Source of the DNA: Fragilaria crotonensis
Lineage: Eukaryota > Bacillariophyta > Fragilariophyceae > Fragilariales > Fragilariaceae
Direction of reading: 5' to 3'
DNA: 50,420 nucleotides
NCBI GenBank assembly: GCA_022925895.1
Contig: JAKSYS010000469.1
Coordinates: forward strand, 1 to 50,420
Each line of letters opens with the position of its first letter. The first letter of the stretch is position 1. Under the pieces are notes generated by a model that saw only the letters and a list, made by a program, of their open reading frames with translations, had not been told where the DNA came from and made no database searches. This document shows positions 1 through 38,054 of this stretch, one piece after another. A program made the translations under genes and the position numbers.

Positions 1-341
1 ACGGTACAACATTATGACGATACGACAATACAATCGATATGACATTAGCACGGTACAACATTACGACGATACGACAATACCATCGATACGACATTAGCAC
101 GGTACAACTTTACGACGATACGACAATACGACGATACGACATTACGACGATACGACAATACGACGATAACGATACCACATTACGACGATACGACAATACG
201 ACGATACAATGATACAACAATTCAACGCTACGACATTAGCACGGTATGACATGACTACAACGGTAAAGTGTATAAACGGTACGACATTAGCACGGTATGA
301 CATGACTACAACGGTAGAATGTATAAACGGTACGGCATGCC
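1..341. repeat. Degenerate ~49-51-bp tandem repeat array
   Basis: Units begin ACGGTACAACATT or ACGGTATGACATG and end GACATTAGC. They start at 1, 50, 99, 241 and 292. The third unit is expanded internally by short ACGATACGACAATACG motifs (about 15 bp). The frames that stay open here (for example 209-592) only translate the repeat and show no recognisable protein. I see no gene. Confidence 0.8.
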
Positions 342-535
342 TACAGTGCCGACACCACATGGTCAAGACATCACATTCGTTTGACATCAGACCTGCACCA
401 CGACCACATGTCGTCACAACATCGTCAATGGTACGACGACGTCGTCATCGAATCGTCGCAATTGACGACGTTGCAATCATCGTTCGTTATGAAGTGTGCA
501 CCCGACGTTTGCTTGTTCGGTGTTGTTGTCATTTT

Positions 536-757
536 GAAAAAGTGTTCATACTTCGGTACCGCCTCACGTACAAGCTACGTGTCGCCACTTGAGTTTCAAA
601 AAAGTGTTCATACTTTGGTATTACGTTACGTACACGCTACGTGTCGCCGCTAAAAGTGTTCATACTTCTCACGTACAAGCAACGTGTCGCCAGTAGAGTT
701 TTGAAAAAGTGTTCATACTTCGGTATTGCTTTACGTATGTACATGCTACGTAATCGT
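536..757. repeat. Four tandem copies of a ~51-62-bp motif
   Basis: Each copy starts AAAAAGTGTTCATACTT, continues through ACGTAC and ends near GCTACGTGTCGCC. Copies start at about 536, 598, 652 and 704. The last has lost the GTGTCGCC end. The stretch from 757 to about 910 holds no gene that I can support. Confidence 0.75.
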
Positions 758-912
758 ACAATAGCAATGTACATCGAGTAAGTAATGTACCTAAGTACAT
801 TACATGATACATGTACTTCATCTACACACAGTACTTGCACTTATCGAAGTTGGACTGATAACTACTGCCCCACCCGCATTGCCCACTACTTATTGCATCA
901 GCAGTAATCTGG

Positions 913-1400
913 CCAATCAAATGTGTTTTAAAATACTGACTGGTTAGAAATGGTCAAACACACCATGGACCGAACTGATGATTTCATACAGTTCATTTTT
1001 TAGACATAGTGACGTTGTAGTTTTTTTTACTTAGATGAAAATCTTTTTAAGTAATCACTCATCTCGTCCAATCAAATAATTTCTCTGATTTTTGACGGAG
1101 TCAAAATGCTAAGTAAGGCCATACCAACCTCATGTGACTGCCCCATACTTAAACGTAATGATCTTAGAATTTTATTTTAATTAAAGGTGCGTTTTTTTAA
1201 GTAAACACATGTGGTAACCAATCAAATAATTTCTCGAATTTTTGACGGCCTGGATATCGTATGTATTGCAACACTAATATTATGGTACTGCCCCATACTT
1301 AAAGTGAGTGCCTAAGATTTGCAATTTTAATTAGATAATTAAGTACCTAATTAAAACTATACTCTGGCCAATCAGATAATTTTCAGGAAATTGGCGGAGT
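913..1400. repeat. ~150-bp-spaced repeats upstream of the AlkB-SRA gene
   Basis: The motif CCAATCAAATAATTTCTC, followed by a Gly/Thr-rich TTTTTGACGG block, occurs at 1068 and 1218, with a diverged copy at 1368: exactly 150 bp apart. A partial copy (CCAATCAAAT) lies at 913. A second motif, ACTGCCCCATACTTAAA, precedes two of them with the same 150-bp spacing (CCCC at 1141 and 1291). The spacers are AT-rich and diverged, so this is an old tandem array or a periodic regulatory/subterminal region rather than a fresh satellite. Confidence 0.7.
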
Positions 1401-1505
1401 GAAATTTGTCTGAGCCACATAAAGTTCGTATGACGGTGCATCTCATATAGCGTATCATTAGGCTATATGTGACGTAGCGGCAGCGAATATGCAGCATATG
1501 CAGCA

Positions 1506-4079
1506 GGAATTTCACTGACCGAAAACCAATTCCACAAAGTCGTGCTTTCCAAGAAATCAAGGAAACATGGTTTTTCCACCTCAACAACCCATCATCCCTG
1601 TCAATCCTCTCTGGACTGTTAACCAGACAAGGCCACCATGGTTTCCCCCGCCGTCGTTTGCCTTGTATCCCTCCTTTCCCATGCAGTATGCACCCGCTCA
1701 TGGTGCAATGCAGCCTCCCATAATCATGCCCATGATTTTCGTGATCAACGCGGCGCCAGCTCCGAGTCCACCTCCTTCCGTTGTAGTTAACAACTACAAC
1801 AATTGCAACTTTTATGGTGCACCTCCTTCGAGCGAGAAAGAGGAGAGTGCTTCGAACGAGAAAGAGGAGAGTGACAAGATCAAGTTGGATAGCAAGAAAA
1901 GAGGTAACGATGCCATTGACCACACGTTTGGGATTCAAGGCTGTCGGTGATGGTACATGGTGGTGAAGAAGAGAAAGAAAACTTCGATCGTGACGAAGAA
2001 GAGAGTGAAAGACGACAGCCAAGGAAACACTGATCATTTGGAAGAGGAAACACCACAAAGAAGACCAAGCGACTGATGCAAAAAGTTTACAAGAATGCTG
2101 ATTCAATTTCGCTGCCATCAATGGTGAAGGCAAATGAAACGTATGAGCGGATCATTGCCAGATCGAGAAAATGGTTATCAGCACAAAAGGGATATGGTCC
2201 GTGGAGTTTGCATAGTGTGAAGAATGTTATAGACAATGGTAAGACCAAACCGCTTGTTTTCCAAATGAATCGAGGTGGAACAATTCAATTCTTTCCTGGG
2301 ATTGTGTGCAAGATGTTGTCGGTTGGAGATGAGATGCAAATATAAAGCAGTTCAAGCAATAAGGTTCGAGAGTGTGGAACGAGCCCAGACTTCATGCTTT
2401 ATTCACTTCTTCCCAGCAAATTGCCAAGGGAGGAAGTGGTTTTCAGTATGGAAGAGTAAGAGTTGGGAGCAACCCACTTGAGACACTCCCAGTTATATCA
2501 AAGCTTGCGGAGAAGATGGCATTCAAATTTGGATTGAGTAATAACCAATGGAACATTGGGTGTCATCTTGTTATTTATCGAGATGGCAGGGATTCCATAA
2601 ACTGGCATGCAGATGACACGCAAGGGGAAGATATGGTTCTGTCATTAACTGTGGATGGTCCTGATGACACATAGGTCAATTTGTTTTCGCAGCCCAATAC
2701 AAAGCATTGCAAGATTTAGATGAACAGATTGAATTGTTCCCCGACCTGAGATGCCTACAGTATGGATGCTGGGGTGCAACATGGAATTTCACTGGACGGA
2801 AAAACCACTCCCACAAAGTCGTGCTTTCCAAGAAATCAAGGAAATATGGTTTTTCCACTCAACAACCCATCATCCCTGTCAACTTCCTGACTGTTAACTA
2901 GACAAGGCCACCAGTATATTTCCCCGCCGTCGCTTGTCTCGTATCCTCCTTTCCCATGCAGTATGCACCCGCTCATGGTGCAATGCAGCCTCTCATAATC
3001 ATGCCCATGATTTTCGTGATCAACGCGGCGCCAGCTCCGAGTCCACCTCCTTCCGTTGTAGTTAACAACTACAACAATTGCAACTTTTATGGTGCACCTC
3101 CTTCGAGCGAGAAAGAGGAGAGTGCTTCGAACGAGAAAGAGGAGAGTGACAAGATCAAGTTGGATAGCAAGAAAAGAGGTAACGATGCCATTGACCACAC
3201 GTTTGGGATTCACAAGGCTGTCGGTGATGGTATGATGGTGGTGAAGAAGAGAAAGAAAACTTCGATCGTGACGAAGAAGAGAGTGGTGCGCGACGACGTC
3301 AAGGAAACACCGACTCATTTGGAAGAGGAAACACCACAAAAGAAGACCAAGTTGACTGATGCAAAAGTTTACAAGAATGCTGGATTCACCTCGTCGCTAT
3401 CAATGGTGAAGGCAAATGTGAAACGTAGCGAGCGGATCATTGCCAGATCGAGAAAATGGTTATCAGCACAAAAGGGATATGGTCCGTGGAGTTTGCATAG
3501 TGTGAAGAATGTTATAGACAATGGTAAGACCAAACCGCTTGTTTTCCAAATGAATCGAGGTGGAACAATTCAATTCTTTCCTGGGATTTGTGTGCAAGAT
3601 GTTGTCGGAGTTGGAGATGAGATGCAAAATATAAAGCAGTTCAAGCAATACAAGGTTCGAGAGTGTGGGAACGAGCCCAGACTTCATGCTTTATTCACTT
3701 CTTCCCAGCAAATTGCCAAGGGAGGAAGTGGTTTTCAGTATGGAAGAGTAAGAGTTGGGAGCAACCCACTTGAGACACTCCCAGTTATATCAAAGCTTGC
3801 GGAGAAGATGGCATTCAAATTTGGATTGAGTAATAACCAATGGAACATTGGGTGTCATCTTGTTATTTATCGAGATGGCAGGGATTCCATAAACTGGCAT
3901 GCAGATGACACGCAAGGGGAAGATATGGTTCTGTCATTAACTGTGGATGATCCTGATGACACACGGTCAATTTGTTTTCAGCCGGCCAATACAAAAGCAT
4001 TGCAAGATTTAGATGAACAGATTGAATTGTTCCCCCGACCTGGAGATGCCTACAGTATGGATGCTGGGGTGCAACATGG
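1506..4079 (+). repeat. Direct tandem duplication of the 5' part of the AlkB-SRA locus
   Basis: Unit 1 (1506-2782) and unit 2 (2783-about 4079) begin with the same GGAATTTCAC and run in parallel through the promoter-proximal and dioxygenase coding sequence. The join at 2781-2787 has only GGA as shared microhomology. Long stretches are identical or nearly so (about 1690-1920 against 2956-3190; about 2390-2660 against 3676-3960). The differences are almost all 1-3-base indels, many in short homopolymers. Unit 1 is clean at its 5' end and error-rich at its 3' end. Unit 2 is error-rich at its 5' end and clean afterwards. Confidence 0.85.
1567..2782 (+). pseudogene. Truncated, frame-broken first copy of the AlkB-SRA gene
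   Basis: The copy opens with an ATG and 127 intact codons (Pro-rich N-terminus, then the APAPSPPP and acidic/lysine stretches shared with the downstream gene). A 2-base loss near 1930 shifts the frame. Later losses, compared with the second copy, fall in runs such as TTT, GGG, AAAA and CCCCC. The HxD iron-binding segment is present (near 2600), but the copy stops before the second iron-binding histidine and has no SRA domain, so it cannot encode an active enzyme as read. Its N-terminus, about 38 codons longer, is probably the true start of the locus, because the matching segment of copy 2 (2848-2955) is indel-damaged. Real duplicate or assembly artefact: I favour artefact. Confidence 0.7.
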
Positions 4080-4842
4080 ATATGTCCATGCCATGTTGAA
4101 GACAGGAAAAGCAGGATATGAGAGTGGGAAGAGGATGGCAATTATATTTCGCAATGGACTTCAGAAGCACAACATGGAGGATAATGGGAAGATTGTTGAA
4201 AACTATAAGCCCAGGACACGAGTTCAATACATTTTTGGTGGAATGGCTAATGTTCTCACTGAAGGAGAGTGCTATTCCCGGGAGGCTTTGATGGATATGG
4301 GGGCTCATCTGAATGATCGGGGGAACATTGATGGTAATAAGACAGATGGATGTCCCTCGATTATTGTTTGCTTCATGCGAAGAAGGTGGGATCAAGATCA
4401 CTTTCATTTTCTAACTTATGAGGCTGGAGATCATTCCAGACCCTTGGCGATGTTGAAGAGTTATCATGATCACAAGCCAATCAGGGTGTTTCGTTCTTCC
4501 AAGGGCAACAGGGAGAAGGGTAAATATTTTCCTGTGAGTGTGGATCCCAAAAGAACAGTGTATCGCTACGATGGGCTTTATTATATTATTTGTGCAAGGA
4601 GTCGGGATGATAAAGATGCAGATCCTTCAAATGCCAGAGTGTTCTATATGGTACGTGCTGAGCCAAGTGAAACCATGTCAGCATTGCATCTGCAAAATCC
4701 AGCAGCCCGAGAATTCCTTCCAAGCCTGGACAAAGGAACAAGAGATTTTAGTGAACGACCATCTGAAGACTTGCATGAATCTATCGATCCATGGAGCATT
4801 GAGGTGTTCCATGATTGGAATCCTCATTGGTGTGGACTTTAA
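2956..4842 (+). CDS. AlkB-like 2OG-Fe(II) dioxygenase fused to an SRA-YDG domain
   Basis: This 628-codon frame joins two nucleic-acid modification domains. Residues ~1-150 are low-complexity, Pro-rich then Lys/Glu-rich, and include basic nuclear-localisation-like runs. Residues ~200-400 match the AlkB fold: iron ligands H315-x-D317 (in INWHADD), a distal His at 378 (in QHGYVHAM) and R393/R399 in the 2-oxoglutarate-binding strand (GKRMAIIFR). Residues ~413-575 match an SRA domain, with KPIRVFRSS (507-515) and the signature YRYDGLYY (536-543). AlkB enzymes oxidise methyl groups on bases; SRA domains bind methylated or hydroxymethylated cytosine. A protein that reads modified cytosine and oxidises bases is therefore inferred, not shown. 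The start used here is the first clean ATG; the copy at 1567 suggests a longer N-terminus. The gene converges on the helicase 26 bp away. Confidence 0.85.
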   Translation: MQYAPAHGAMQPLIIMPMIFVINAAPAPSPPPSVVVNNYNNCNFYGAPPSSEKEESASNEKEESDKIKLDSKKRGNDAIDHTFGIHKAVGDGMMVVKKRKKTSIVTKKRVVRDDVKETPTHLEEETPQKKTKLTDAKVYKNAGFTSSLSMVKANVKRSERIIARSRKWLSAQKGYGPWSLHSVKNVIDNGKTKPLVFQMNRGGTIQFFPGICVQDVVGVGDEMQNIKQFKQYKVRECGNEPRLHALFTSSQQIAKGGSGFQYGRVRVGSNPLETLPVISKLAEKMAFKFGLSNNQWNIGCHLVIYRDGRDSINWHADDTQGEDMVLSLTVDDPDDTRSICFQPANTKALQDLDEQIELFPRPGDAYSMDAGVQHGYVHAMLKTGKAGYESGKRMAIIFRNGLQKHNMEDNGKIVENYKPRTRVQYIFGGMANVLTEGECYSREALMDMGAHLNDRGNIDGNKTDGCPSIIVCFMRRRWDQDHFHFLTYEAGDHSRPLAMLKSYHDHKPIRVFRSSKGNREKGKYFPVSVDPKRTVYRYDGLYYIICARSRDDKDADPSNARVFYMVRAEPSETMSALHLQNPAAREFLPSLDKGTRDFSERPSEDLHESIDPWSIEVFHDWNPHWCGL

Positions 4843-4868
4843 TATTTGATCGATACTAATTAAATGTT

Positions 4869-7800
4869 TTATTTTAACTGATATTTCACCTCAATTGTTG
4901 CCATGAACTCACAAAATGTTTCTTTAGATGTGTAAATTCCCTCGATGAATTCCTTGAAGCTGCTGTTTACCTTGAACTTCAGGAAATAATTAGAAAGCAA
5001 GCGACGAAGCCTCCCCTTTACTTTGCATTCATTGGTGTCATGACGCTCAGCACCTGGAACACATTTGTAGACCCAGCATTCGCAGCATGCAATGTTATTT
5101 AAGTATGCCTTGTCAAAACATTGAGTCTTGCGATCATGATCACTCACACCACATTTGTAACAGGTCTTCCAGGAAAAGCAACAACTTCGGTTCTCTGGCA
5201 AGGACTTACTCCCTTTGCCCTTGAGAAGAGGTATGCCACGACACCCAACCCCTTCACAAACAAGGCAACGCAATGTCAGCATTCTGAGAACTCGTTGAGT
5301 TGCCTCTCCATCTCTCCTTTCCTTTTCCAAACGAAGTGAAACTTCATTTTGAATTCTTGTCACTGGCATTCGTCGACAGAATGGACAAGCACCACAAATG
5401 TCTCGGTTCTTTCCAAATGAACTTGATAATATCTTCAATGCACAGTCCTTTTGTACTTGCGATGTATCAATAAGCCAGTCACGAACACCAACAGAAGTCA
5501 TAGTTGCTTTGTATTTGCTGTAATCATCCGATGATAAGATTCTTTCGTTCAAAAGCTTCGTGAATCTTTGCTGATCCTCTGATACTCTAAAATCCGACAA
5601 TTGTTCCGGCAGCAAAGAGGACTTGTCCAGTTGTGGTTCTCATGTACTTCCGCAACCGCCCAACTGCTTGGACTATCTGCATGGAATCATAAAGGTAGCC
5701 AGCACACGCGAGATGTCTGCATTGTGGATTTTCGTTTCCAACCATTGCGATGGACGTGGATATCAGGACTTTGAATGCTCCTCTGCTCCATTCCAAGGCG
5801 ACCTGATTTATGGTCTCTCGTCCTGTATCAGAGGAAACAAACCTGCAGTCATACCGTGAGGAAAGAAGTTCAAACAATTCAGAACCATCATGTTTCTCCG
5901 CAACAAAGATATGAATGGCAGTATCCAGGCCAGGTGGAGGACCCAACCTCATCGCAACAAAGCTTGTAACCTTATCCAGGTATGTAGAAGTAAAAGTGAC
6001 CTTTATCTTGAAGCCTTTCGGAAAATCTCCTATGACATCATTTCCATGAATAACTTTCATATCTCCCAAGTTGTCGGAGACGGATAAGCAAAGTTTCTTT
6101 GCCAATCTTGGCAGTGTGAAGAGTGGAATGGATCCGCTCAGCGCAACAATTGGAATACCCAACACTGGAAGTCTCCCGTACACTTTATACTTGTCACGAA
6201 AGCTCAACTCTGAAAAAATGGTGTGAACTTCATCGATAACAATCTTGTCCATGACATCCACCCAAGACTCCAAATGTCCAAAATGGAACGTGAACAAATT
6301 GAACATTGCATCCAGGCTGAGAAACAATATACCAGGAAGCCTTCTGTTGTTCAAAAGCTCCTCGGGAATTGCCATTTGGGTAATATCCCTTCCTGTGAAC
6401 GAGAGCAGTGAAATGTTTGAATCCAACCCAAGCTTCTCGATAACAGCAGAAGCATTTGCAAACTGGTATCCAGCCAGAAAACTGTAAGGTGAGATATGGA
6501 TAATTGTCTTGCAATCATGGTTTGCGAGATAACGAGCAATGGTCGGAATGATGTAGGACTCAGACTTTCCATCACCTGGAGCAAGAAGAGCAAGACAATG
6601 CTGCTTTTTGGAGGATCCGGGACCATAACCAAACTCAACTAACTCTTTCTGCTGTGTCGAGAGGTAGTTGTTGCTCTCCAATGAGGAGGACTTTGGAAAC
6701 CGAAGCTGCATTGCCTTACGAATATCTGACAAGGACAACATACTCCGACACTTCAATAGATGATGCGAGGTATCCCCAATTGCAGAATGATATGCATCAA
6801 AGTGGGCCTCCTCGGAACCGATTTGTTCAGTTGAATAGGTGCTTGCATGTGTATAGGTAGAATGACCCATTTTTGATGCTCCGATTGCACTTGATGTCAA
6901 AAATTTGTTTTGAAGATTGCCACTTGTAACAAAATTTGTAACGCAAGCCCAAAACTGTCGTACTTGTGTCATGTCTGGCAATGATGACAAAGTGAAGAGA
7001 TCTCGAATCACATGGGAAGGTCCAAAATCAGCTGGATTGTTTCGACTTGGAAAAATCAATCTTGAGCATCCACCATCATCATCTCGCAATATGCTTTTGT
7101 TTGCTTGTAAAAGAGATCGGAACAAAAGGAAGTACCGACAAATAAGTGGAGGGAGTTTCCGCTCGACTTCTTTATGCTTCCTTCGTGAAGTGTTGTTAAA
7201 ACCTTTCAATGAGGAGAGAGAATAATAGATGGTCTGGTTGCTAAACACGCAGTGAAACATTGTTGGTTCAGCTAACTCTGTCATTCTTGCGGATCCTCCA
7301 CCAAAGCCATGAAATGACATCTCAAGCAGTGCGGTTAAGGAATCCCACTGATCAATTGGCAAAAGAGGAACTGGTTTCCAGGCGGGAGAAATGTCAACAA
7401 GGAAAATGTCTCCAGTGTCCTCATTGACTCTTACTTTGACATTTGTCGAGAGATCAACAACTGGCTCCCACCATATCCCAATCGCCAACTCGGAGATTGC
7501 TTCCCGCATAAGAAATTCTGTTCGAGGTACAATTTGAGACCAATCATCATACAAAAATGTAAACTGATCAACCGTTATATTTCCCATGGCATCAAGGGTT
7601 GTCTTTCGGCGTTTGGGTAAACGACGATGCATTTCACGGATTTGACGAACCATTGGTGACAAAATATGAATGACCGGTGATTCTCGCACTGATTTGACAA
7701 GTGCTGGACCAAATGTTGTAAAGGAGTGCTCCGCAAACGAACAAATAACGGAACAAACTGCTGCTTTCAAAATTGATGCAACCTTCGAGAACACAGATGA

Positions 7801-8952
7801 GACTGTATCGCATGAAATCATGTTGATTTCTGAACCATGTTTAGAACTCGAAAAGCAAACATAAGACAGAATTCTGCAACCAAGGGAAGGGAGGACACTG
7901 ATTGAGGGACTTCCAGCAGCAAATCCTTCAAAAGAAGGGAACTGCAAATGCATCATGGTTGTCAAAGCCTCGTGACAAAAAAAGACCTTGTCTGTATGAA
8001 AAGGCTAGAAGCTTCTTCAATTCAGGAAGTAGACTCCTGGGATCATGTTGCATTGTGTATGTGCAACGATGCGAAATTTCATCAACCTCACCACCTTCGA
8101 AGGTTTGTAATGCAGCCCGTAGATTGCCTGGCACCATCAAAATATTTTTTGTTGCGAAATTCAGAAGCCAATCCTCAGCATGTGAGTGAATTTGTATCAG
8201 CAATCTCTCACTTGAAGGATGTGGTGCTGAGTGGATTGACAAGAAGTCCATTTTTATCTTCTGGACAAATTTGCTGCCACCACCGCATCCTGCAATAAGA
8301 GGGGTGAACATGTGAGTGTAGGTATGGTCCTGTTTTTCACGTTGAGGAAGCAATGGGAGAAGGACAGTTCTCGCCTCCTTATAATCAAATTGTTTCTTTA
8401 TGCGGGATGGTCCATCACCAAATAGAGAAGTGACCTGTGATGGGACACATATCGACCACAGCAGAGCTTGATTAGCTCGAGTTTTTGCAGTTTGATGCGT
8501 CACAACCCATTTTTTTGCAATGTCGAAGTGCGTTGTCTTTCTTAATTGAAAACCATCCCACATCTACAGGAATAACCAGTGTAGGTATTCTTGTCGCTTC
8601 GGTATGATTCAATGGATCCTGAGGCCTTTGCAATTTCGAGTTGCAATTCGAAAGCGAGGAGAAGAGAACGAACCAAAGCAACTCTGCTGTCCAAACCATG
8701 TTTTTTTAAATGCCGGGAGATGCATCGCTCATCAGGCTGAATAATTGAATTTTTTTTACATTGCCGACAGCATAAACCAAAAGGAGAAAATGTGAAAAGA
8801 TCCCTAATAGGAAGCATGGGGTCTGCATCCTCTTGTGGAATGTCTTGAAGGACCATTGCCTTTCGCTTGGTGCCTGTCATCTGAGACACATTAAAGTCCA
8901 TGGTTTGTTGTGGTGGACAATGGAGTTGAGGGATGAATGATATGGCTTTCAT
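4869..8952 (-). CDS. Large RecQ-like DEVH helicase with N- and C-terminal zinc clusters (three frameshifts)
   Basis: Read right to left, four overlapping frames (8952-8542, 8563-7928, 7965-5587, 5615-4869) make one protein of about 1,350 residues, joined at three small indels; one is in an A4 run at 8549-8552. The N-terminus has a CRQC...H-x3-H finger and a second CRCG-x-VF...H cluster. A long unassigned middle region follows. The SF2 helicase core has Walker A APGDGKSE (6560-6590), Walker B DEVH (6223-6243), motif III SGS and motif VI QAVGRLRKYMR (5636-5672). The C-terminus (5615-4869) is Cys-rich with repeated CxxC pairs. I recall similar zinc finger plus RecQ-like proteins in fungal repeats (DUF3505 type), but cannot confirm homology. 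Role inferred: replication or transposition of its own element. The frames carry almost no nonsense codons, so this is either a young pseudogene or an intact gene with sequence errors. Confidence 0.75.
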
Positions 8953-9014
8953 TTGAAAATTGGCGCACGGATTTTCATACTACAAGGGAGGTAGAGAGTG
9001 TGATGAATTCCATA

Positions 9015-9112
9015 CCTCCCGTGGTATTTGTCCTTAAGTAAAAAGTCCCTCCCATGGCAAGGAAAATCCCTCCCGTGGTACATCTTCCTAAATAGAAGTC
9101 CCTCCCGTGGTA
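9015..9112 (-). repeat. Four iterons, CCCTCCCGTGGTA type, 5' of helicase copy 1
   Basis: Copies lie at 9015-9026, 9047-9059 (CCCTCCCATGGCA), 9068-9080 and 9100-9112. A TCCTTAAGTAAAAAGT spacer separates the first two, and TATCAAGTAAA follows the last. The array lies between the helicase start and the terminal hairpin, where a replication or transposition protein could bind. Confidence 0.85.
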
Positions 9113-9160
9113 TCAAGTAAATATATTTATGCCTGAGGAAAATTTATCTAGTTCAAACCC

Positions 9161-9176
9161 CGCCCCCTTAGGGGCG
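9161..9176. other. Terminal GC hairpin of helicase element 1
   Basis: CGCCCCCTTAGGGGCG can fold as a 6-bp stem (CGCCCC/GGGGCG) with a CTTA loop. The same CCCCGCCCCCTTAGGGG block ends the second element at 11784-11800. To its right, helicase copy 2 sequence starts at once, which sets the element boundary near 9171-9177. The outer CG may belong to the target. Confidence 0.75.
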
Positions 9177-11650
9177 AGAAGTCCAAAGCAATGTTGTGGT
9201 CTCTGATATAAGTCATGTTCACGACCGTATCCAAACTCAACAAGTTCCTTCTGTTGAGATGAAAGATAGTTGTGTCCATCAATTAAAATAGCCTTCGGAT
9301 ACCGTAGCGACATTGCCATCCGAATATCACCCAATGATAGTTTGCATGATTGCAGATGAGACATCTGGTAGGATGTGTCCCCGATGGCAAAGTGATAAGC
9401 ATTGAAGTGAGATTCTTCAGCCCCAAGTCGTTTGCTTGAATAAGCAACACCATGTGTCATCTTTGAGTGCCCCATTTTTGATGCCGCCACAGAACTTGCT
9501 GTGGATGTCAAAAAGCCTTTCCATCCCCATCGTCACCAGTAACAAAGTTTGAAACACACGCCCAAAATTGTCGAATCTGCCGCATATCGGGTGATGAATC
9601 CAAATTGAAAATATTCCTGAACAAATTTGGAACACCAAAATTTGAAGGTGTTATCAGCTTTGGAAAGATGAAAAGGAATTTGATTGCTCAAAAAGATTCA
9701 CATTCGCATTGACGAGAGATCGGTACAACAAAAAGTATCGAGTGATGACAGGAGGGAGTTTTCGCTCAACTTTCTTAAACCGACGACGAGAAGAACTGTT
9801 AAAACCCTTCAGTGACGTCATGGAGTAATATAAAGCATTGTTGCTGTACACGCAGTGGAACATAGTCGGTTCTGTCAACTCTCTCATCCTTGCAGATCCT
9901 CCTCCAAAACCATGAAATGCCATCTTCAACAGTGCCGTTAAACAATCCAAATGATCAACAAGGAATGAAAGTCCAACATTCCAACAGGGAGTGACATCGA
10001 GCAATGAAATGTCTGCCGTATCATCATCGACATGGACTCTGATAAATGTTGATGGATCCACCACAGGCTCCCACCAGGAACCATCAGCCAAATGAGTTAG
10101 CGACTCCCGCATCAAGGTAAGAGCTGTGGGTACTATGCGTGACCAGTTGTCGTATGGAAATGCATATTGGTCAACAATGATATTTCCACCGGAGTCAATC
10201 ATAGTTTTGCCTTTTGGTAGTCGTTCATGCATTTCTCTTATTTGTCGAACCATCGGTGACAGAATATGGAGTACGGGAGCCTTGCGAATAGATGACACAA
10301 GCAAATCTCCAGAATGGGTGGATGACTGCTCTGAAAAGAGCAGATGACGGAGCATACTGCTGCTTTCAGAAGCGATGCTACCTTGGAGAATAACGATGAC
10401 ACAGTGTCACAGGATATCAGAGAGATTTTTGATTCCTGAGCAGATACACGAAAAGGAAACATGAGACAGAATTCCACCGCAAAGGGATGCGTGGCAACTG
10501 ATGGTGGAACTTCAAGCAAAAATCTTTCAAAAATATGCGACTGCAAATTCATCGCTTTCATCAAAACCCTTGATGCAAAAAGGCCCTTGCGATAGGAATA
10601 GGATAAAAGCTTCTTCAATTCAGGTAGTAAGCTGGATGGATCATGCTGCATCGTATAAGTCTTCCTTGTGACATACCATTGACTTCACCAGCATCAAAAT
10701 TTTGTAGTCCAGCGCGGAGATTCCTGGCACCATCAAAATATTCTTCGCGCAAAATTCAAAAGCCAATTTTCAGCTTGGTTATGAATTTTGATCAGAACTG
10801 TCTCATGCATTTGGCTCGGTGGAGAATGGATAGAAATGAAGTCATTTTTATCCTTCTTACAAAGTCTTGTGGACAAACACAACCATCAATGATGGGGTGT
10901 ACATGTGTGTGTACGTATGGTCGTGCTTTTCCTGGGTGGAAGGAAAGGAAGCAAAGCCTCTTGCCTTGCAGTAATCAAATTGCTGCGTGATTCGAGGTAC
11001 AGTGTTGAAGAACTTGTCAATTTGCACCTCTGAAACAAATTGACCACAACACAATTTGATGAGCTCAACCTTCTGGAGACAAGACGGATCACAACCCAAC
11101 CTTGTGCAGTGACGGCGTGCGTTGTCCTTTCTTGGAAAACTTCACCGCAGATGCATGAAAATCCCTTATAAGTACTGTTGTCAATTCGGAACGGCTCAAT
11201 TGTTCCAGCAGCCTTTATGACTTCCAGTTTTGTTACAAAAGTATCAAAAGGGAACGGATAGACGCGGCCCTGCTGTCAAAACCATGTTTTTGACATGCTC
11301 ACGGATGCATCTCTCATTGATCTGATAGACACTTTTTGGGCAGAGTCGACACCCAAGTCCAAAGGAGAAATGGAAAATATACCTTGAAGTGATGCAGGGG
11401 GTGATCAAGTTGATCAGATGCTTGCAAAGGAGACATGTTGTTGGTAGTCACCTCTTGTATCTCAAGGGTGGTCATCATGATGTGATAATGGCGCTTGTAC
11501 CAGGAGTGCCGAGTGCATAGTTCAAAAATTGGGCGGCAAAAACATTTTGACCATACCTGGTTTAACATACGTAAAGACTATCATTCGATGAGTTGATGCA
11601 CCTAAATTGCGCCATATTTTTGTACGAGCAAATTGTACGGATAGCGTTTT

Positions 11651-11738: not shown

Positions 11739-11783
11739 TCAAGTAAAAGCATCTATACTTGAGGACATTTTATCTAATTTGAA

Positions 11784-11800
11784 CCCCGCCCCCTTAGGGG
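11784..11800. other. Terminal GC hairpin of helicase element 2
   Basis: CCCCGCCCCCTTAGGGG, with CCCC/GGGG paired around TTA (11790-11800). It matches the end of element 1 base for base up to GGGG, after which the flanks differ (AGTGTG here, CGAGAA there). This fixes the element end at the G run. Confidence 0.75.
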
Positions 11801-13745: not shown

Positions 13746-13886
13746 ACTCAACAAGAAGTCACTATTTTACAGGTAGTTGACGGTTTTTAGTAACATGTGA
13801 TGCAAGAAAATACATAGGTACTCTGAGCATTTGTATGAGAGTGGCCGAACGAAGTTTCAAACGACCTCAGATGCGCATATCACTGA

Positions 13887-14695
13887 GGCCCGTTCCAACC
13901 GTCGCAGAATCGGCCGCAAAAATCGGCCGCAACCGCACGCTTCGCACGCCTTTTTTGGGGCTGATTCGCGATGACGGTTGGAAGGCCTATGAAGATTATG
14001 CCGCAGAATCGGATTCAGATGTGCACCGGATTCTTGGTTCTCTTCTGACAAACCAACAAATAAAACCTTACAGTACGCGAGTATTTTAGAACGCTAGCAG
14101 TACTTGTACCTGGTACTGCCGCAGTGAATACCAGCAACCAGTTGTCATACTGGCGATGAATGAGCATCTGAAAGCATGAGTAGATGAAGTACAAGTACTT
14201 GTACCAGGGTGCACTACGTGGTATTCTTCAGCTGGGATCGCAACGTCACAACGTCACAACGACACAAAATCATCGTACGTACGGGTACTGTAGTACGAGA
14301 ATGATTATGATACTGGTACCAGAGATACGAGGTAGCGCCATTGCTAGTGTACCAGCACTATGTACGAACAAGACAAAGAGTGAACTGCAAATCAATCGTT
14401 ATGCTGAAGGGAGGAGTGGTGTGGTGTGGTACTGTAAGTCTGTAAGCCGTAGCAACGCCTCTCGTACACAGTACACAACCTCATCCTAATTCCTTCGTCA
14501 AGTTATTTAAGAAAACCCGGATTCCTGCGGCTGATTTTAGAAAACCCGGATTTCTGCGGCTGAAAAACCTCCCCCCAAACAGCCAGGAGGTTATTCAGCC
14601 GCAGCGCTATTTATTTAGCCGCAGAAAATTTTGACTCGTTCGAATAAAAATTGCGGCTAAATTTGCGGCCGATTCTGCGACGGTTGGAACGGGCC
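13887..14695. mobile_element. Non-autonomous PIF/Harbinger-like MITE
   Basis: A perfect inverted repeat of at least 34 bp bounds the element: 13887-13920 (beginning GGCCCGTTCCAACCGTCG) and its reverse complement at 14662-14695. A 3-bp TGA lies directly outside both ends (13884-13886 and 14696-14698). A 3-bp target duplication and GGCCCGTT-type ends are typical of Harbinger/Tourist elements. An internal degraded copy of the same end at 13968-13987 suggests a nested or rearranged smaller element. The interior has no transposase; the weak frame 13835-14089 only spans the left end. Confidence 0.75.
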
Positions 14696-14696
14696 T

Positions 14697-17910: not shown

Positions 17911-18690
17911 TGCACTGACACAAACAAGTTAGAAACACCAGCCCAAAAGTGCAGAGATCTCTGATGATGTGTGATGGTTGAATGGCTGAATGATTGATTC
18001 TTGTAGGGAAAATGAGATTATGAGTGTTGTCGCTGCCGTGGCTGGTGAACAAACTTGAACAACAAGAAATATCTGGAGATAACAGGAGGTAGCTTGCGCT
18101 CAATTTCCTTGCTGTTTTGACGTGATGTGCTGTTGAAGCCTTTCAGGGTAGAAAGTGTGTAATAGACTGTATTGTTGGTGAAGAGACAATTAAACATTGT
18201 TGGATCGCGACGCTCATTCAACCTGGCCGAACCCCCACTGAAACCTTGAAAAGACATTTGTAAAAGTGCCGTCAAATGGTCAAAATGCTCCAGTGAGAAA
18301 AGAGAACCTTGTTTCCACACGGGACTCAAAGGTCACCAGTGTTACATTCCACGCGAACTTTAACATTGGTCATAACATCCACTACCGACTCCCACCAAAT
18401 TCCATTGGCCAAGTTTGACATCGCAAGCTTCATCAAGAGCACAGTCTAAGGAAGGATTTGTGACCAGGTGTCAAATGGAAAGGAGAATTGATCGACAACA
18501 ATGTTTCCGATTTCATCAAGAGTGGTCTTCCTCCGTTTTGGGAGTCAACGATGCATTTCACGAATTTGCCGGAGCATCGGTGACAGAGAATGGAGAACAT
18601 GGGATCTTCGTACAGCAGTTAAAAGTGCTGGACCATGTGTGTTGAGAATGCATCTTCTGTATAGGAACAAATAACAGAATTTTAACTTTA
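17911..18690 (-). pseudogene. Third helicase-family fragment
   Basis: The minus strand reads LKAL-like remnants, PFHLT, the segment FDHLTALLQMSFQGFSGGSARLNERRDPTMFNC, LKGFNSTSR, ERKLPPVISRYFLLFK and PTRINHSAIQPSHIIRDL. These match, in order, the middle region of helicase copies 1 and 2. Several frameshifts are present. Neither zinc fingers, ATPase core, iterons nor hairpin are here. Confidence 0.7.
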
Positions 18691-18761: not shown

Positions 18762-20762
18762 ATGACGACGGCTTCAAGTCGAGATTATGACGATGGTGGT
18801 GCATCTGGTTCCAAACCAACTTTCTCTGACGATTTATCCGATGTGACGCCAACCGATGATAGAAACGCACGTGGTAAAGACTGTCACCGTGTTGAGAAAA
18901 CCCTCCGTTTTCGTTTTGCACCCAATCATCGTACTGAAGATAACATTGCCCCCGGTCATGTTCACCTTCATTGGATTACCGCCGTACAGGAAACCTTCGG
19001 TGATCAGGTTCGAATCATCGATAATCACAATCGTGTTCTTCCAACGGTAAATCTTCTCAGATGGACAACTCTTCAGCATCAGCAACATTTTAACATTCAT
19101 CAACCAACACCAAGTGATTCAATCCATCAACACGACAACGTTCGATTTAATTCTACCGCGAAGGGTAAAGCCCAATTCATCCTCCATAGAATTCAAACAA
19201 GTATTCCCTTGAGAGAAATCAAAGCAATTCCCAAAATCAGGCAGTTATTGGTCGAAAACTCGTGTTATGTACATGAACATCGGTGGTCGGAACAAATTTG
19301 GAATACGACTCATCTCGGATTTATGGTGGGCCTCGATCCGCAGTATTACGACGTGGATCAAGCCACTATGAAAATCAACAACGATATTCATCAGAAGTTC
19401 CCTCGTACCAAGATCCCAGCGTTCCGACTTGTTTTTAGCACTCCACAAATTCGAAATGACCAGTTTTATGCAGTAACAAAGGCATATGCGATTGAGACGG
19501 AGAAGGCAAATAGTTTGAACATGATGCAGATTCTTAAGACCACGTATCAAGATACAGCAACATATGTCCCATTTCAGTTGAGGAGTAAACATCCAGAAGC
19601 GTACGCAAGAACTATACGACAACAATCGCGGATCTTAGCTTCTCATTATGTAATCATCATGCAGAATATTGGACCGGATGCTATGTTTTATTTGGAAGAC
19701 CATATCAAGGCTATCGACGGAGTTATCGATGTGATGCCATCCAAGACAGTCGAGGTTACGGGGAATTACCGAGTCCTTGTTCATAAAGTCAAGTTTCAAA
19801 ATATTCGTCGTGAATTGAGAAAGAATTTACCCTTGTGGTACAAAGAACATGTTTCCGCGGAGGTTCACCCTCGAGACGACCAATATTTAGGAGAACCAAG
19901 GGTAGCAATCCTGGAAGAAGACGGATATTCTAGTGGCGAAGACACTTACACGGCCAAAAGTATTGCAACGGCGTTCTCATACGAGGGATCAATTCCGGCA
20001 TTCCGCGACTCGCCTATTCATCCAGACCAGGCCACCCAGCAACGGAATCAACAAGGTCTCCCTTCGAGCGTTCAAGCTACAGAGATTGGAACATGGGCCG
20101 ATCGAGTCCGTGGCAATAACGGCATCACAAATACAAACCACCAAGTATCAACTTCGATTCAGTCCCAGAGCACATCTGATCTTATATCAGATCTTGCATC
20201 GAGTCGAGCTGAAGTGGAAGAATTACGTACGCAGATGTCAGAACTCACCGCAAGTTTTGAAACGCAACGGGCAGAACTTGTGACGTTCTTCAAAGAAGAA
20301 ATGGCACGAAGTTTATCCGAACAGCTCCAGGCCATAACACAACAACAACAGCAACAACTCCACCTACAATCATCTCCAGAAACAACGACAATTGATCAGG
20401 TTATCACCCTCATCCAAAACCAAGATCGGAAGTTTCAAGCACTTACGGATATGGTGGCCTCCATGATGACGATGGCACACACGACAAATGACAAGCGTCC
20501 GCCTGACGAGATGAATACGTCATATGAAAGCAGCAACGACACACAAGGTACGCAGGAATTCCCCGGAAGGAACATGGATAGGAAACAACCACCCAGTAAA
20601 CAATTAATCATTCAAAAGGACATCGACCGCGCACAGCAGTCTCCATCTCATATAGACCATGCAGAAATGGATCTATCAGATGACAGCCTAACTCCAGGGG
20701 GCGCACAGGACTCTTCCATCGCCAGTGGCGGGAAGGTCAACCAAGATCGTTATCATGATTAG
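18762..20762 (+). CDS. LINE ORF1 protein
   Basis: 666 intact codons. Residues 1-370 are an unassigned, possibly globular part with many His/Gln/Asn. Residues ~475-545 form a coiled coil (SRAEVEELRTQMSELTASF...) running into a Gln-rich stretch with a Q5 run. The tail is polar and acidic. I see no CCHC zinc knuckle. ORF1 proteins of LINEs bind their RNA and multimerise; that role is inferred from position and the coiled coil. The stop overlaps the ORF2 frame by 38 bases. Confidence 0.7.
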   Translation: MTTASSRDYDDGGASGSKPTFSDDLSDVTPTDDRNARGKDCHRVEKTLRFRFAPNHRTEDNIAPGHVHLHWITAVQETFGDQVRIIDNHNRVLPTVNLLRWTTLQHQQHFNIHQPTPSDSIHQHDNVRFNSTAKGKAQFILHRIQTSIPLREIKAIPKIRQLLVENSCYVHEHRWSEQIWNTTHLGFMVGLDPQYYDVDQATMKINNDIHQKFPRTKIPAFRLVFSTPQIRNDQFYAVTKAYAIETEKANSLNMMQILKTTYQDTATYVPFQLRSKHPEAYARTIRQQSRILASHYVIIMQNIGPDAMFYLEDHIKAIDGVIDVMPSKTVEVTGNYRVLVHKVKFQNIRRELRKNLPLWYKEHVSAEVHPRDDQYLGEPRVAILEEDGYSSGEDTYTAKSIATAFSYEGSIPAFRDSPIHPDQATQQRNQQGLPSSVQATEIGTWADRVRGNNGITNTNHQVSTSIQSQSTSDLISDLASSRAEVEELRTQMSELTASFETQRAELVTFFKEEMARSLSEQLQAITQQQQQQLHLQSSPETTTIDQVITLIQNQDRKFQALTDMVASMMTMAHTTNDKRPPDEMNTSYESSNDTQGTQEFPGRNMDRKQPPSKQLIIQKDIDRAQQSPSHIDHAEMDLSDDSLTPGGAQDSSIASGGKVNQDRYHD

Positions 20763-23700
20763 AGGAAGAGATTTGGCAGCACCGGGTTCTCAGATTGAGA
20801 ACCCATATCGGCGAGGGAGATCATCGCTAGGCAATCCAAATGAACAACAAACAGAAGACCCGAATTTACTACGATTACATACCGCTCAAGCTGAATGGAA
20901 TAACCTGTTTACAAGCCGTTCGGTTCGTAACGAACAAGGTGTGGGAGCGAATCGTTCTATCGTACTCACAGAACGAAACCGCCGCTCGAACTACTCCTGG
21001 GGAGATCAATTAGCAGACAAAGACGGTACGACAACCAGAGTTTATGCTCTGAACGTCAACGGGTTCACTCTCGATAGAAGAGGAGGTCAATTCGATGAGT
21101 TTTGTAAGGTGGCAAAAGAAACGCAGGCTGATATCGTATGTTGTCAAGAGCACAATTTGGATGTAACTCAAACTCAAGTTCGTAGCATCTTGTATGATAC
21201 CCTACGGCAGCATTGGTCAAGGACACGCATTACAATGGGGACGTCACCGATACCATTCGACAACATGTTCAAACCCGGGGGGACAATGATTACGGCAATC
21301 AACAGTATCACCGGACGAATCATCGGTACTACCAACGATAAATGGGGGAGGTGGGTGAGTCAGACATATCGTGGGCGAGACAATGTTCGGATTACAATTA
21401 TATCTGCATATCAGGTCGTTACCAACAATCCGAGGGGGAACCAGTACTGCCGCATCGCAGCAGAGGAGTTTACTATTACAGTCTAACGATGGATGCACTG
21501 AGCCGAGGAAAGCTTTCAAACGGGATTTGCGGCTCTTCATACAGGAATGTCTCACAGAAAGACACGAGATACTGTTAGTCGGTGACTTCAATGAATCACT
21601 TGGATCAGAAATAGATGGAATGAGCAAGATGGCTGCGGATCTGAATCTGATAGACCTGATGAAAGTTCGGCATACTCAGTCATCTCCGGCAACCTACTCG
21701 AGAGGTCGATCAAGGCTGGATTATGGACTCGCAACACAACACGTTGCATCTTCCATGACAAAGTGCGGATATGAATCATTCAACTCCAGGTTCCCAACAG
21801 ATCATCGAGCGTATTTCTTCGATTTTTCCACGGATCAATTGTTCGGAAGTGAAACACAGACTTTGGCAAACCCAGAATTACGAATGCTGAAGTCCAACAA
21901 TGTGGAGCAGGTGACCCATTACGTTAAAACATTGTACGATTTTATGGAAAGTCGTAATGTCTTTGATCGAGCGGAACGCCTTAATCTCCCAGGTGATCGA
22001 CACGAATTTGTAGAACGTTTAGATAAAGACGTGGTGAAAGCGAGTTTGGATGCGGAACAAAGGACGAAGCATTTTAAAGAACCTGCATGGTCAGTTGAAC
22101 TTGCTCAGGCGAGGCAAAAAGTCTCAATCTTAAAGAAATGCCTCAGTTCCCTTCGCACAGGTTTAGATCATCGCAGCATTTTATTGAATGATATTAACAA
22201 CGCAGGTCTTGATATCTCGGTACCATCTACGTTACAGGAATGTTCGTCACAGCTTCGGCACGCGCAGAAAGAAGTGAAGACCATCGTGTCTACAAGTTTT
22301 CAACGTCGAGACGAGGAACGCAATGAACGTATCCGTACTTTGGACGAATCTATGGCAAAGGCAGATAAAGCCCATGCAACACTGTTGCGCAGGATCCGGC
22401 GCGCGGAGTTGATCAAGAGAATGTTTGAAAAATTGAAGATACTTCGGGCGAGAGGACAACGCAATGGAGTTACCAGCATTGAAATCCCCGTGCATCCAGA
22501 CGACGATCCTAAAACGTGTCAGGACTGGCAGACAATCGATGTCCCCGACGAAATTGTCCAACATCTCCAGGCTCGAAATAGGAAACACTTCGGCCAGGCT
22601 CATGGAACCCCCTTCACGTGCGAACCGTTAAACAATGATTTAGGTTTCTGCGGTGAAGGTCCAGGTGCTGACGCCATCTTAAGTGGTCAATATCGATCAT
22701 TCCTTTGCTCCTCAAATTCAACTTCTTTTGCAACACCTCAAGATTACCGAGGAGATGGCTCAACTTCAAACATTTCCGACAATCTCCCAAGAGGAACTGG
22801 TGGGTAAATTGAAGGTGTGGCGAGAATCCACCACAACGTCCCCATCGGGGATGCATTTGGGACATTATAAATCCTTCTGGCTCGGCATAAGTATTCTAAC
22901 GCAGTTGATGAAGATGTTTCGGATTCGGAGACGGCATCAGACACATCGAGGTCCCCAGCGATTATGCGATGAAATGCGAATATGATCGAATGCAACAAGC
23001 GATCCTCCGGGTGCATTTGTTAATCATCAATTATGCTCTGGAGCGCGGTTATTCACTCAGTCGATGGCGAACAGTTGCAAATACTATCCTCTTTAAGGAG
23101 CCTGGAAATGTGAAAATCCACAGAACACGAGTGATACACATATACGAGGCAGATTATAATCTGGTTCTTGGTTTAAAATGGAGGATCGCTCTATACCAAG
23201 CGGAAGCACTCAAACAACTCAATGATGGGCAATATGGATCTAGACCGAGAAGGAATGCAATCGACCCTGTGATGATTGAAGAATTGCAATTCGAAATCTC
23301 ACGAGCAACAAGAAAAAGTTTGATTCAAACTAACTATGATGCAGCATCGTGTTACGATAGGATCATTCCGAGTATGGCAATGATCGCGAGTCGAAAATTT
23401 GGAGTTCCTAAAACTGCCACACGCTTAAATGCCAAAACCTTACAAGAAGCGAGATATCATATTCGAACAGAACTGGGTTTATCTCCTACAAGCTATCAGC
23501 ATGAAGACAGTATGCCTATCTACGGAACAGGTCAAGGTAGTGGGAATTCTCCAATGATCTGGTGTTTCATATCTAGTGTACTCTTCGATTGTTATGAAAA
23601 ATCCGCATACCAAGCCGTCTATTGTAATCCCGACAGAACTCATCCGATCGACATCAACATGATCGGATTTGTGGACGATAGCAACGGTCAGGTTAATTCA

Positions 23701-26700: not shown

Positions 26701-26766
26701 CGAGTCAAAACTAAAGCCATTCAGGGTGTCCGATCGATCAGAACCTATTTTGCACCTATACGGTAA
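20725..26766 (+). CDS. LINE ORF2: AP-type endonuclease, reverse transcriptase, RNase H (frame-broken)
   Basis: Frames 20725-21486, 21371-22807, 22683-22985, 22969-25164 and 25252-26766 form one polyprotein. The endonuclease shows CCQEHNLD, GDFNE, SRLDY and DHRAYFFDF. The RT shows SPSGMHLGHYK, YDAASCYDRI (motif A), GTGQGSGNSP (motif B) and FVDD (motif C, about 23668). RNase H has D in SDGSVR (about 25243), E in YRAEAYG, D in GTDSKSV and VRGHQD. A Cys/His cluster CPLC...H...C (about 26044-26100) and a conserved C-terminus follow. At least five 1-2-base indels break it; the first is in a G5 run (21434-21438). Few nonsense changes are seen, so sequence error or recent inactivation are both possible. 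Confidence 0.8.
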
Positions 26767-36326: not shown

Positions 36327-38054
36327 GCTCTTGCTTATTGAATGATGTGCCTTCTACTGCCGATGGTGTCGTCGTCAAAGCCACTTCCATTATAATCAAA
36401 GGGCCTACGTCCGTGTGCCCAATCCGGCTGGTAAAGGCACTATCAACTCGCTCGATAACTCTATCACCACTTATACGGAGGCCGCTGCTGAGCTCTCGTT
36501 GATGCAGGCTACGAAGATCATTGTAGAAGAGTTCATCGGTACAACCACGTCGTCAACGGCGAGGTCGATGAAGTTGATATTATTACAGGCCGCGGTGTTG
36601 ATTGTCCTTGCAACGCTGTCGTTGACGAAAACTAGAATGGCCTTGATCAATTTGGTTGCTTCGAACCGAGTGGAGTTTGATCCGTTGAAACGAACGGATG
36701 TACTGCTGTTGACTTCATTCCTGGAAAGCGCCGTGCTGGCCCTGTGAAGAAGGATGTGTACATCTGTGGCGATGACAGCATATCTTCTGTCTTGGAGATG
36801 ATATTGAACGTGCAGATTCTGGAGCTGCATTACCCATGATGAAAGCTTGTCCTCGTGGCATGGGTGTTGCTCCTCGTCCATACAGTTGTCGTCCTCCTCC
36901 CCATGCACCTCTCGATGAGCGTTGCTGCTGTTGTCGAGTGGCAGCGGAATCGTCCGCCACCACCCCGGCGGTCGAAGATGCCGCCGAGGTTGCGTTACCA
37001 GGAACAAAGAAGTCCTGAAATTTCGCTCAGCTACGGGTAGTTACTGCAGTTAACTGCAGCAATACATGGTAAATCGACGACTCCTTTAGTAGGTGATAGG
37101 TGATAGTGCTCTTGGCGGCTCCTACCGCTTTACTCCGATTACCACGTACTTGTAAATACGAGGCTATCATCAGGTATTCTCATCCACTCCTTATCCATCA
37201 TCGTTTCGAAGCAAGTCAGAATTCAAACGGCCACCAACACTGCACGTCTCGATGTATGTGACAACTAATTTCGTACTCAGGGTGCTACAATTTTGACTTG
37301 TTACGAATATAGTACGTGGCACGGATACAAGTACGAGGTCGGTACCCCCTCTCGATGAGTCTACATCCTACAAGGCTATGAATACCTGTTGTATCGCTCT
37401 GGAGTACTGAGTGGCACTCCAACGACGATGTTTCTTATCATACATATATATTGTATTGGATGCATGCCACAAGATCCTGGTAAAATGTACTTTGCGACCA
37501 TTGAAAGTACAGTAGAGATTCCTCATCTCCCATCTAGATTCCTCATGACGCCTCGAGATTCTTTCATACGGCCACCCGACATGTCGCAGCAATCCTCAAT
37601 ACTGGCGTGAGACGTTTATTACTACGTGTCATATCAAGGACAGGTGTAGTCGTAATTCACACGACCCGCACAGCAGACGAAGTCGATAATAGTTTGTTGA
37701 CTTACGCAGTAGCATTAGACTGGACTCCGCAATTCATCTCACAAAACTTAAAACTACCTTGTAGTCTCGAGAAGGGTTAATTAAGACTTCCCATCACTCT
37801 ACAACAATAGGTACGAGTAATCGAATTTTCATTTCACTCATCGTAGCTATTGGGATTTTGTGTTTTTTACTTCAAATCACTTCCTATTTCGACTAACGCG
37901 CCGCTTCTTCCTACTATACACTGTATGTCGTATGTCATTTCATACCTCGTGTACTTTTTTGGATTTGCTGGTACTGTCCCGTACTGTATCCTGTATTACC
38001 ATGCCTGCCCCGTCCATCATACGTCCGTTTCATTTGGATTCTCAGCGGAACGTT
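36327..38054. other. Intergenic with coding debris, then promoter of the PstS-Hint gene
   Basis: 36327-37020 looks like decayed coding sequence without a clear family. 37021-38054 holds no supported gene. The frame of the next gene stays open upstream to 37860, but I treat that as leader. Confidence 0.45.

Follow-up and report, generated by a model that had tools for sequence, protein, structure and literature searches.

We analysed a 50,420-nucleotide stretch of the Fragilaria crotonensis genome (assembly GCA_022925895.1, contig JAKSYS010000469.1, positions 1 to 50,420 of the forward strand), hereafter the window, and observed at its left end a gene for an AlkB-SRA protein that faces a helicase gene within a repeated unit. 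With slightly better than even confidence, we favour the reading that these left 9.2 kb are the outermost unit of a stacked chromosome-end array. Such an array would grow by addition in one polarity and carry an exchangeable cargo slot, filled here by an SRA-guided AlkB enzyme that would erase a mark or a lesion. The AlkB-SRA gene itself is best read as an exchangeable cargo carried by several types of mobile element and possibly able to erase marks, a function that we infer. The features concerned are the following (aa, amino acids; ORF, open reading frame; 2OG-Fe(II), 2-oxoglutarate- and Fe(II)-dependent).

1-340, no strand: subtelomere-type minisatellite of 49/51-bp units, found with Tandem Repeats Finder (TRF)
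~1499-2785, plus strand: degenerate tandem copy of the start of the AlkB-SRA gene, found by sequence similarity, with many small indels
2956-4842, plus strand: AlkB-SRA gene, one open frame of 628 aa
3637-4152, plus strand: AlkB (2OG-Fe(II) oxygenase) domain, aa 228-399 (PF13532, 34.8 bits against a cut-off of 31.2)
4273-4614, plus strand: SRA (modified-cytosine reader) domain, aa 440-553 (PF02182, 48.6 bits against a cut-off of 30.7)
4843-4868, no strand: gap of 26 bp between the convergent stop codons
8563-4869, minus strand: chromosome-end helicase (superfamily 2, DEAD/Helicase_C, Cys-rich C-terminus) in three overlapping ORFs
9152-9172, minus strand: proximal end of the terminal unit, CCTAAGGGGGCGGGGTTTGAA, with the recurrent start ^CCTAAGG
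9173-11128, minus strand: older helicase unit, cut by the terminal unit near residue 462 of the reference core
11778-11798, minus strand: proximal end of the older unit, an exact pattern match
17916-18646, minus strand: still older helicase remnant in the same orientation

The genome searched comprises 881 contigs (62.1 Mb), and its 19 matches to the silicon-transporter family PF03842 (best E 4e-193) most likely mark it as one of the diatom lineage; C-numbers denote its contigs and L-numbers the loci extracted from it. Window position 1 is the first base of contig C413, and no telomeric array was seen at this start. Using blastn, we found that window positions 5-478 match C754 (L016 433-896) at 80%. 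C754 opens with telomeric CCCTAA/CCCCTAA repeat as far as base ~428, and the matching repeat follows directly; window base 5 aligns ~5 bp from this telomere junction. The window thus appears to open very nearly at the point where a telomere would be expected, and since its first bases match a telomere-adjoining repeat, the end of the chromosome is probably what takes the place of a left terminus. Contigs C754, C592 and C23 start with telomeric repeat, toward which helicase copies (C754, C592) or a C-terminal helicase fragment (C23) read. All five unit starts that a genome pattern scan found on these three contigs point to the telomeric repeat. With helicase copies or a fragment beside telomeric repeat on these three contigs, we class the units by position as telomere-linked helicase units.

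On its proximal side, each unit begins with a recurrent sequence that looks like a single telomere repeat, inverted, with GGGG after it. When we scanned the genome for CCTAAGGGGGCGGGGTTCAAA with at most three mismatches, we found 52 sites, compared to 1 for the reversed control. The sites lie on 27 contigs, and their direction is uniform within each of the 14 contigs that hold at least two (39 sites in all), an outcome with a chance of 2 to the power -25 if sites were random and independent. Allowing up to five mismatches in the extracted loci gave 23 starts, 16 of which have a C as the base preceding CCTAAGG. Eight of these starts abut a helicase of the same family, each cut at a different residue, three have part of a unit 81-271 bp before them, and 12 are without unit-protein similarity within 400 bp. 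On the distal side of the eight cut helicases, we found no further helicase match up to the contig end (in C84, to within 126 bp). Since a simple insertion leaves the other half of the helicase and an end addition does not, we interpret the arrays as the outcome of repeated rounds in which chromosome ends were shortened and then added to. The recurrent starts on differently cut helicases thus suggest addition to chromosome ends, not simple insertion.

The same anatomy is seen in the window, where the terminal unit interrupts the older helicase. The original prediction, made from the letters of the window, had described this interruption, which we confirmed with the boundary at 9172 rather than 9176. 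It had also stated that the missing half of the cut helicase is not found to the left of the AlkB-SRA gene, and indeed none was detected between 9172 and base 1 (E <= 1e-4). Its proposal that everything from the window start to this boundary lies inside the element stood in part: base 1 to 9172 appears to lie within a chromosome-end unit, but not one placed by simple insertion. The left terminus and target duplication that it called for were not borne out; the unit seems to reach the telomere, and units are stacked in one polarity on truncated predecessors. We reject simple insertion with target duplication on the uniform polarity and on the distal helicase halves missing from the eight contigs above.

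We next turn to the facing genes. Their stops are 26 bp apart, as originally stated, and the convergent pair is repeated in C578, with 96 bp between the helicase match and the AlkB match. The C578 AlkB gene is cut exactly at the CCTAAGG start of the next unit, from which it follows that AlkB-SRA lay inside the preceding unit. To survey the slot, we took as a helicase 3' end any match reaching at least residue 228 of a 248-aa C-terminal query and recorded facing matches within 2.6 kb. Genome counts here and below are lower bounds: a PF13532 search gave 7 places without the copy in the window, and scoring covered 57 of 124 candidates for the helicase, 88 of 121 for a cargo family that we call X, and 56 of 414 for another, Y. 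Of 21 helicase 3' ends in the extracted DNA, 19 face a cargo match: AlkB-SRA at 2 (C413 and C578), X at 15 (two of them, at C12 and C841, being 43-residue remnants) and Y at 2 (C490 and C754). The two cargo-less ends are in C84, which is cut by the next unit, and C23, a fragment beside the telomere. Sixteen of the ends had been chosen for helicase or telomere alone, and 14 of these are filled (12 X, 2 Y). The other five, all filled, comprise the given C413, two ends in C578 chosen for AlkB-SRA, and C258 and C269, chosen for co-located X and helicase.

Since several families fill the slot, we regard AlkB-SRA as one exchangeable cargo gene and not a fixed partner. The claim that AlkB-SRA and helicase are parts of one mobile element therefore holds in that they share one repeated unit and recur as a pair in C578, and does not hold as a fixed partnership; with AlkB-SRA facing 2 of 21 ends, an obligate partner is ruled out. 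The original prediction had named helicase copies that lack AlkB-SRA as a refutation; such copies were found, which refutes it for AlkB-SRA itself but not for the cargo slot. In trees of 18 of the 19 helicase copies, the window helicase groups with C776 and the AlkB-bearing C578 helicase with X-bearing copies (support 1.0). The AlkB-SRA domain trees hold 7 of the 9 copies per domain, with C578 not in the AlkB-domain tree, and the SRA domains of the C413 and C578 genes fall into different groups (support 0.84). These groupings agree with an exchangeable cargo: the association with AlkB-SRA arose at least twice, or was exchanged.

The AlkB-SRA gene of the window keeps intact (H315/D317, H378, R393 and R399) what we take to be the AlkB active-site pattern, HxD..H..Rx5R. 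Together with the PF13532 match, these residues assign its predicted product to the AlkB family, and the PF02182 match above cut-off assigns it to the SRA-domain proteins. Eight phage records match the protein inside aa 196-403, several of them annotated as alkylated-DNA repair proteins. Our AlkB-SRA alignment holds four of six rows (L005, which has stops, and L002 were left out). In five AlkB-SRA comparisons with saturated silent sites, replacement differences (pN 0.24-0.38) were fewer than silent ones (pS 0.78-0.88). No match to the Protein Data Bank (PDB) was found at E 0.01, and a single-sequence structure prediction had a confidence (pLDDT) of 31.5 and was not usable. The Tet_JBP Pfam profile matched none of AlkB-SRA, X or Y, and we do not assign them to the TET/JBP dioxygenases; seeded scans of viral contigs found no relatives of the three. 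The degenerate copy at ~1499-2785, near-identical but with many small indels, is either a decayed duplicate or sequencing noise of an unpolished contig end. Elsewhere, C180 (L001 2125-4263) holds a stand-alone AlkB-SRA frame of 713 aa in which Pfam detects SRA alone, with a neighbour that is Yip1-like by eye; it is possibly a domesticated copy.

Family X, the most frequent holder of the slot, is probably, though not certainly, a 2OG-Fe oxygenase. H392, D394, H452 and R457 are invariant in 8 aligned copies (of 10 requested rows; L022, with an internal stop, and L025 were left out), and a strand with PGDMLxFNP and HC is present. Comparison of X with YbiX and seven phage relatives by hhalign gave a score of 25.2, a probability of 9.8% and a P of 0.0033, and among 200 shuffles of each kind as high a profile score came from 0 by column and 2 by block. 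The X strand aligns to the Gly-Asp...His strand of YbiX, which we take to be the distal active-site strand. Pairs of X copies (n = 5) have omega values of 0.10-0.33. Pfam and PDB profile searches with X gave no useful match, profile comparison of X with AlkB-SRA and with Y gave nothing, and seeded scans of prokaryote genomes found no X relatives. In family Y, which is very abundant with 414 first-look genome candidates, H694, D696 and H763 are invariant in 8 aligned copies. We also observed a further ORF family, Z (L017 4424-6424; L032 934-3009), which accompanies X in the chromosome-end units of C592, C84 and C783 and has a relative beside X in a Mutator-like element (MULE-like) of C388 (30% identity, E 3e-31). 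Z looks like a Ulp1 protease by eye and has no Pfam match.

To place these cargo genes in the wider genome, we listed their partners (scored candidates: 90 of 112 for the X partner, all 27 for the Y partner and 85 of 214 for the Harbinger transposase). Two of nine AlkB-SRA loci face a helicase and three face a DDE_Tnp_4 transposase (C732, C603 and C71). The Harbinger entries of the partner listing were C603 and C71; the facing frame of C732 came from a Pfam search. In C732, an AlkB domain above the Pfam cut-off faces a DDE_Tnp_4 frame; inverted repeats could not be sought because the contig ends there. In C603, an SRA-bearing relative (34.8 bits against 30.7) faces a DDE_Tnp_4 transposase (PF13359, 79.9 bits) with 54 bp between the matches. 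This pair lies inside ~65-bp inverted repeats that start GGGTGCATATTATCC and have TTA on both sides, the whole measuring 4.6 kb (L006 2430-7027). PIF/Harbinger transposons make a 3-bp TWA target duplication, and the transposase, repeats and TTA assign the C603 element to this superfamily. C71 holds a decayed form of the C603 arrangement.

For family X, 53 merged loci were compared: the facing partner is the helicase at 15 and a transposase-like gene with a SWIM-like motif at 22. At 3 more this gene lies upstream of X and has the same orientation, and 13 are without a listed partner within 4 kb. The SWIM-like Cys/His pattern of the X partner was recognised by eye; Pfam gave no match save FAR1 at E 0.027, below cut-off and in a neighbouring frame. 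Among 52 merged Y loci, drawn from part of the 414 candidates, 5 face a transposase-like gene, 2 face the helicase and 1 is divergent to it; the Y partner matches PF21056 at E 0.0035, below cut-off. On these grounds we tentatively call the partners MULE-like; X faces such genes more often than Y does. In MULE-like elements (L032 2996-5480, L033 1408-4863 and L038 976-3683), inverted arrays of a tandem repeat particular to the family (52 bp or 73 bp) border X on either side. These arrays recall the tandem-repeat targets of VANC proteins.

In the window copy, the helicase frame is split into ORFs at 7928-8563, 5587-7965 and 4869-5615 on the minus strand, and the breaks are either real or sequencing errors. 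At the DNA level, similarity to the N-terminal region of another helicase copy extends to ~8800, and intact relatives exist, for example a frame of 1324 aa in C490. The gene had originally been called RecQ-like, a label that we could not confirm: Pfam gave DEAD and Helicase_C alone, with no RecQ-specific similarity, NCBIfam matches were below cut-off and non-RecQ, and phmmer found no match in the PDB. A helicase profile did match LGP2/DHX58, IFIH1, DDX3X and one unspecified RNA helicase in the PDB (E 0.002-0.1). RecQ membership is thus unsupported by the Pfam, NCBIfam and PDB comparisons. No Helitron HUH/Rep protein or reverse transcriptase was noticed by eye among the unit ORFs, and no search with specific models was made.

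The anatomy, the polarity, the exchange of cargo and the excess of silent over replacement change in the cargo gene can be read from the DNA, and they suggest how a unit may work. Its layout would run from the fixed start CCTAAGG... through a helicase transcribed toward the telomere, an opposing cargo gene and a subtelomeric satellite to the telomere itself. New units would join shortened ends with one polarity, as the anatomy indicates, by a biochemical route that we can only propose. The cargo slot appears exchangeable, with AlkB-SRA in C413 and C578, the 2OG-Fe-like X in most sampled copies and Y in one lineage. The SRA domain would bind methylated cytosine in the unit and bring the AlkB oxygenase to the element DNA, where it would oxidise or remove a silencing mark, or a lesion. 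The unit might thereby stay transcribed in telomeric chromatin. Protection from methylation silencing is plausible given the SRA domain, the C5-methyltransferase matches in the genome (13, spread over 9 contigs) and the fewer replacement changes. Gene exchange within one fixed slot is evolutionary evidence that the element benefits from the cargo activity. The strongest argument for an element-serving role is that different mobile elements hold such genes in the same facing position, an argument that leans on X being an oxygenase.

Several observations weigh against this reading. The assignment of X makes a weak-to-moderate case from a motif and a profile score, with an hhalign probability of 9.8% and no useful Pfam match, and the Y profile scored no better than shuffles (equalled by 102 and 79 of 200), which leaves Y as a 2OG-Fe candidate by motif only. 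The window helicase is the frame-broken copy described above. At 90% identity over the 1000 bp past the stop, the 21 helicase ends form 8 groups (AlkB-SRA 2, X 3, Y 1, empty 2), and some of the contigs that are nearly identical may be alleles. The uniform direction within a contig could stem partly from tandem duplication, and sites so produced are not independent. Four of nine AlkB-SRA loci are without a partner (C180, with 2.1 kb available; C410, a fragment; C656 and C65, at contig ends), as are 44 of the 52 scored Y loci among listed partners. C603, the sole copy with both transposon ends seen, is without a recognised AlkB domain. AlkB enzymes mostly act on alkylated bases or on N6-methyladenosine (m6A) in RNA, not on 5-methylcytosine, and the anti-silencing role is a prediction from sequence.

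These points bear on three other explanations. One is a subtelomeric Y'-like duplication with a host role, in telomere maintenance or the repair of alkylated telomeres, that spreads by end recombination. We hold this to be rather unlikely. AlkB is a repair family, and the units occupy the ends of contigs or chromosomes and are oriented toward telomeres. Near-identical distal stretches (C592/C84, 99.1% over 8.9 kb; C490/C754, 97.9% over 5.9 kb; C551/C578, 99.7% over 2.1 kb), which also count against our preferred reading, fit exchange between ends, or alleles. Fungal telomere-linked helicases are moreover discussed as telomere-maintenance factors in the available text of PMC10532341. A duplication of this kind does not account for the precise unit starts, 8 of 23 of which lie on helicases cut at differing points rather than at homologous joins, nor for cargo relatives that face transposases elsewhere in the genome, nor for related helicases that differ in cargo type.

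We consider it improbable that AlkB-SRA is a host gene, or the gene of another transposon, that came to lie at a chromosome end by chance while the element consists of the helicase alone. Such a history would fit C180, where AlkB-SRA has no mobile partner in the 2.1 kb available and adjoins a host-like gene (by eye), as well as the 7 of 9 AlkB-SRA loci that are not beside a helicase and the separate grouping of the SRA domains of the two helicase-unit genes (support 0.84). It is opposed by the convergent layout, seen twice with different helicase lineages, by the C578 AlkB gene cut at the start of the next unit, and by the X or Y matches that occupy this slot, in this orientation, at 17 other helicase 3' ends. 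Insertion of an ordinary transposon into a helicase, its left terminus and target duplication lying close to the window start or outside the window, would explain the precise right end within another helicase, yet we give it very little credence: the left end is a telomere-adjacent repeat, each of 14 multi-site contigs has a single direction, and the distal halves of the cut helicases were not found in 8 testable contigs. A bolder form of the chromosome-end reading, which we offer as a tentative and somewhat doubtful proposal, is that the units are a new class of selfish element. These would be linear units with a single inverted telomere-like repeat (CCCTAAGG) proximally and a telomere distally, capping eroding ends without a reverse transcriptase. 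Helicase and SRA-guided oxygenase would then act as an end-capture and anti-silencing pair, with the slot refilled from a pool of mark erasers common to Harbinger and MULE-like transposons.

Four further features were observed in the window. The region at 18762-26766, which adjoins the oldest helicase remnant, resembles a non-LTR (long terminal repeat) retrotransposon, with frames that by eye look like an endonuclease, a reverse transcriptase and an RNase H. A perfect 35-bp inverted repeat at 13886-13920 and 14662-14696, its arms 741 bp apart, is like a miniature inverted-repeat transposable element (MITE). At 37860-40388, an 842-aa frame resembles by eye a repeat protein of the phosphate-binding type whose C-terminal part is Hint-like. 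A 798-aa frame at 41129-43525 has the look of a hAT-type transposase by eye, with no Pfam match at E 0.01, and part of L008 shares 88.6% identity with its upstream flank (43650-43868).

Mark-removing dioxygenases in mobile elements are already known, from fungal TET/JBP and orchid AlkB genes. What may be a like strategy is seen here within chromosome-end units of a diatom-lineage genome; it uses other enzyme families, including one joined to a methyl-DNA reader. Mark erasure may be part of how such elements survive, which makes testable the questions of which mark silences diatom subtelomeres and transposons and what AlkB-SRA acts on. In the open-licence literature, a search that left several key papers outside its range, we found no description of AlkB-SRA or oxygenase cargo in chromosome-end helicase units, nothing combining AlkB, an SRA domain, a transposon and a diatom, and nothing by title on subtelomeric helicases in diatoms.

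Telomere-linked helicases occur in Magnaporthe and S. pombe, among other fungi. In Ustilago, the UTASa telomere-linked helicase belongs to a helicase family repeated beside telomere repeats (PMC10532341, available text). The diatom units likewise have a helicase gene family by telomere repeats; they differ in that RecQ profile tests did not identify their helicase and in a facing oxygenase cargo, of which the available text of PMC10532341 makes no mention. For anti-silencing by a transposon's own protein, the VANC proteins provide a comparison; to our knowledge, VANC is not an oxygenase. In Arabidopsis VANDAL transposons, VANC causes methylation loss throughout transposons, often at tandem-repeat targets, and as far as the available text goes it binds sequence motifs (PMC5735166), whereas the mechanism proposed for the diatom unit is enzymatic. 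Phalaenopsis Ty3/Gypsy elements carry an AlkB domain of the 2-oxoglutarate-dependent dioxygenase type (2-ODD) that is active in vitro on m6A RNA (PMC9289625, available text). They are alike in being mobile elements with an acquired AlkB-type enzyme; the orchid element is an LTR retrotransposon with an RNA substrate and, in that text, no SRA named, while the SRA domain here points to DNA.

The closest precedent is found in fungi, where Iyer et al. reportedly described DNA transposons carrying TET/JBP genes in 2014. Fungal DNA transposons of several unrelated superfamilies, including Harbinger, carry TET/JBP 2OG-Fe dioxygenase genes that move between superfamilies, and escape from methylation silencing has been proposed for this cargo (Kojima 2025, PMC12730594, available text). 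The words AlkB and SRA do not occur in the main text of that paper, as available. Both systems have dioxygenase-type cargo on different mobile elements, Harbinger among them. The F. crotonensis system differs in lying in a diatom-lineage genome, in using AlkB fused to SRA together with family X, in extending to chromosome-end helicase units, and in a mostly convergent arrangement.

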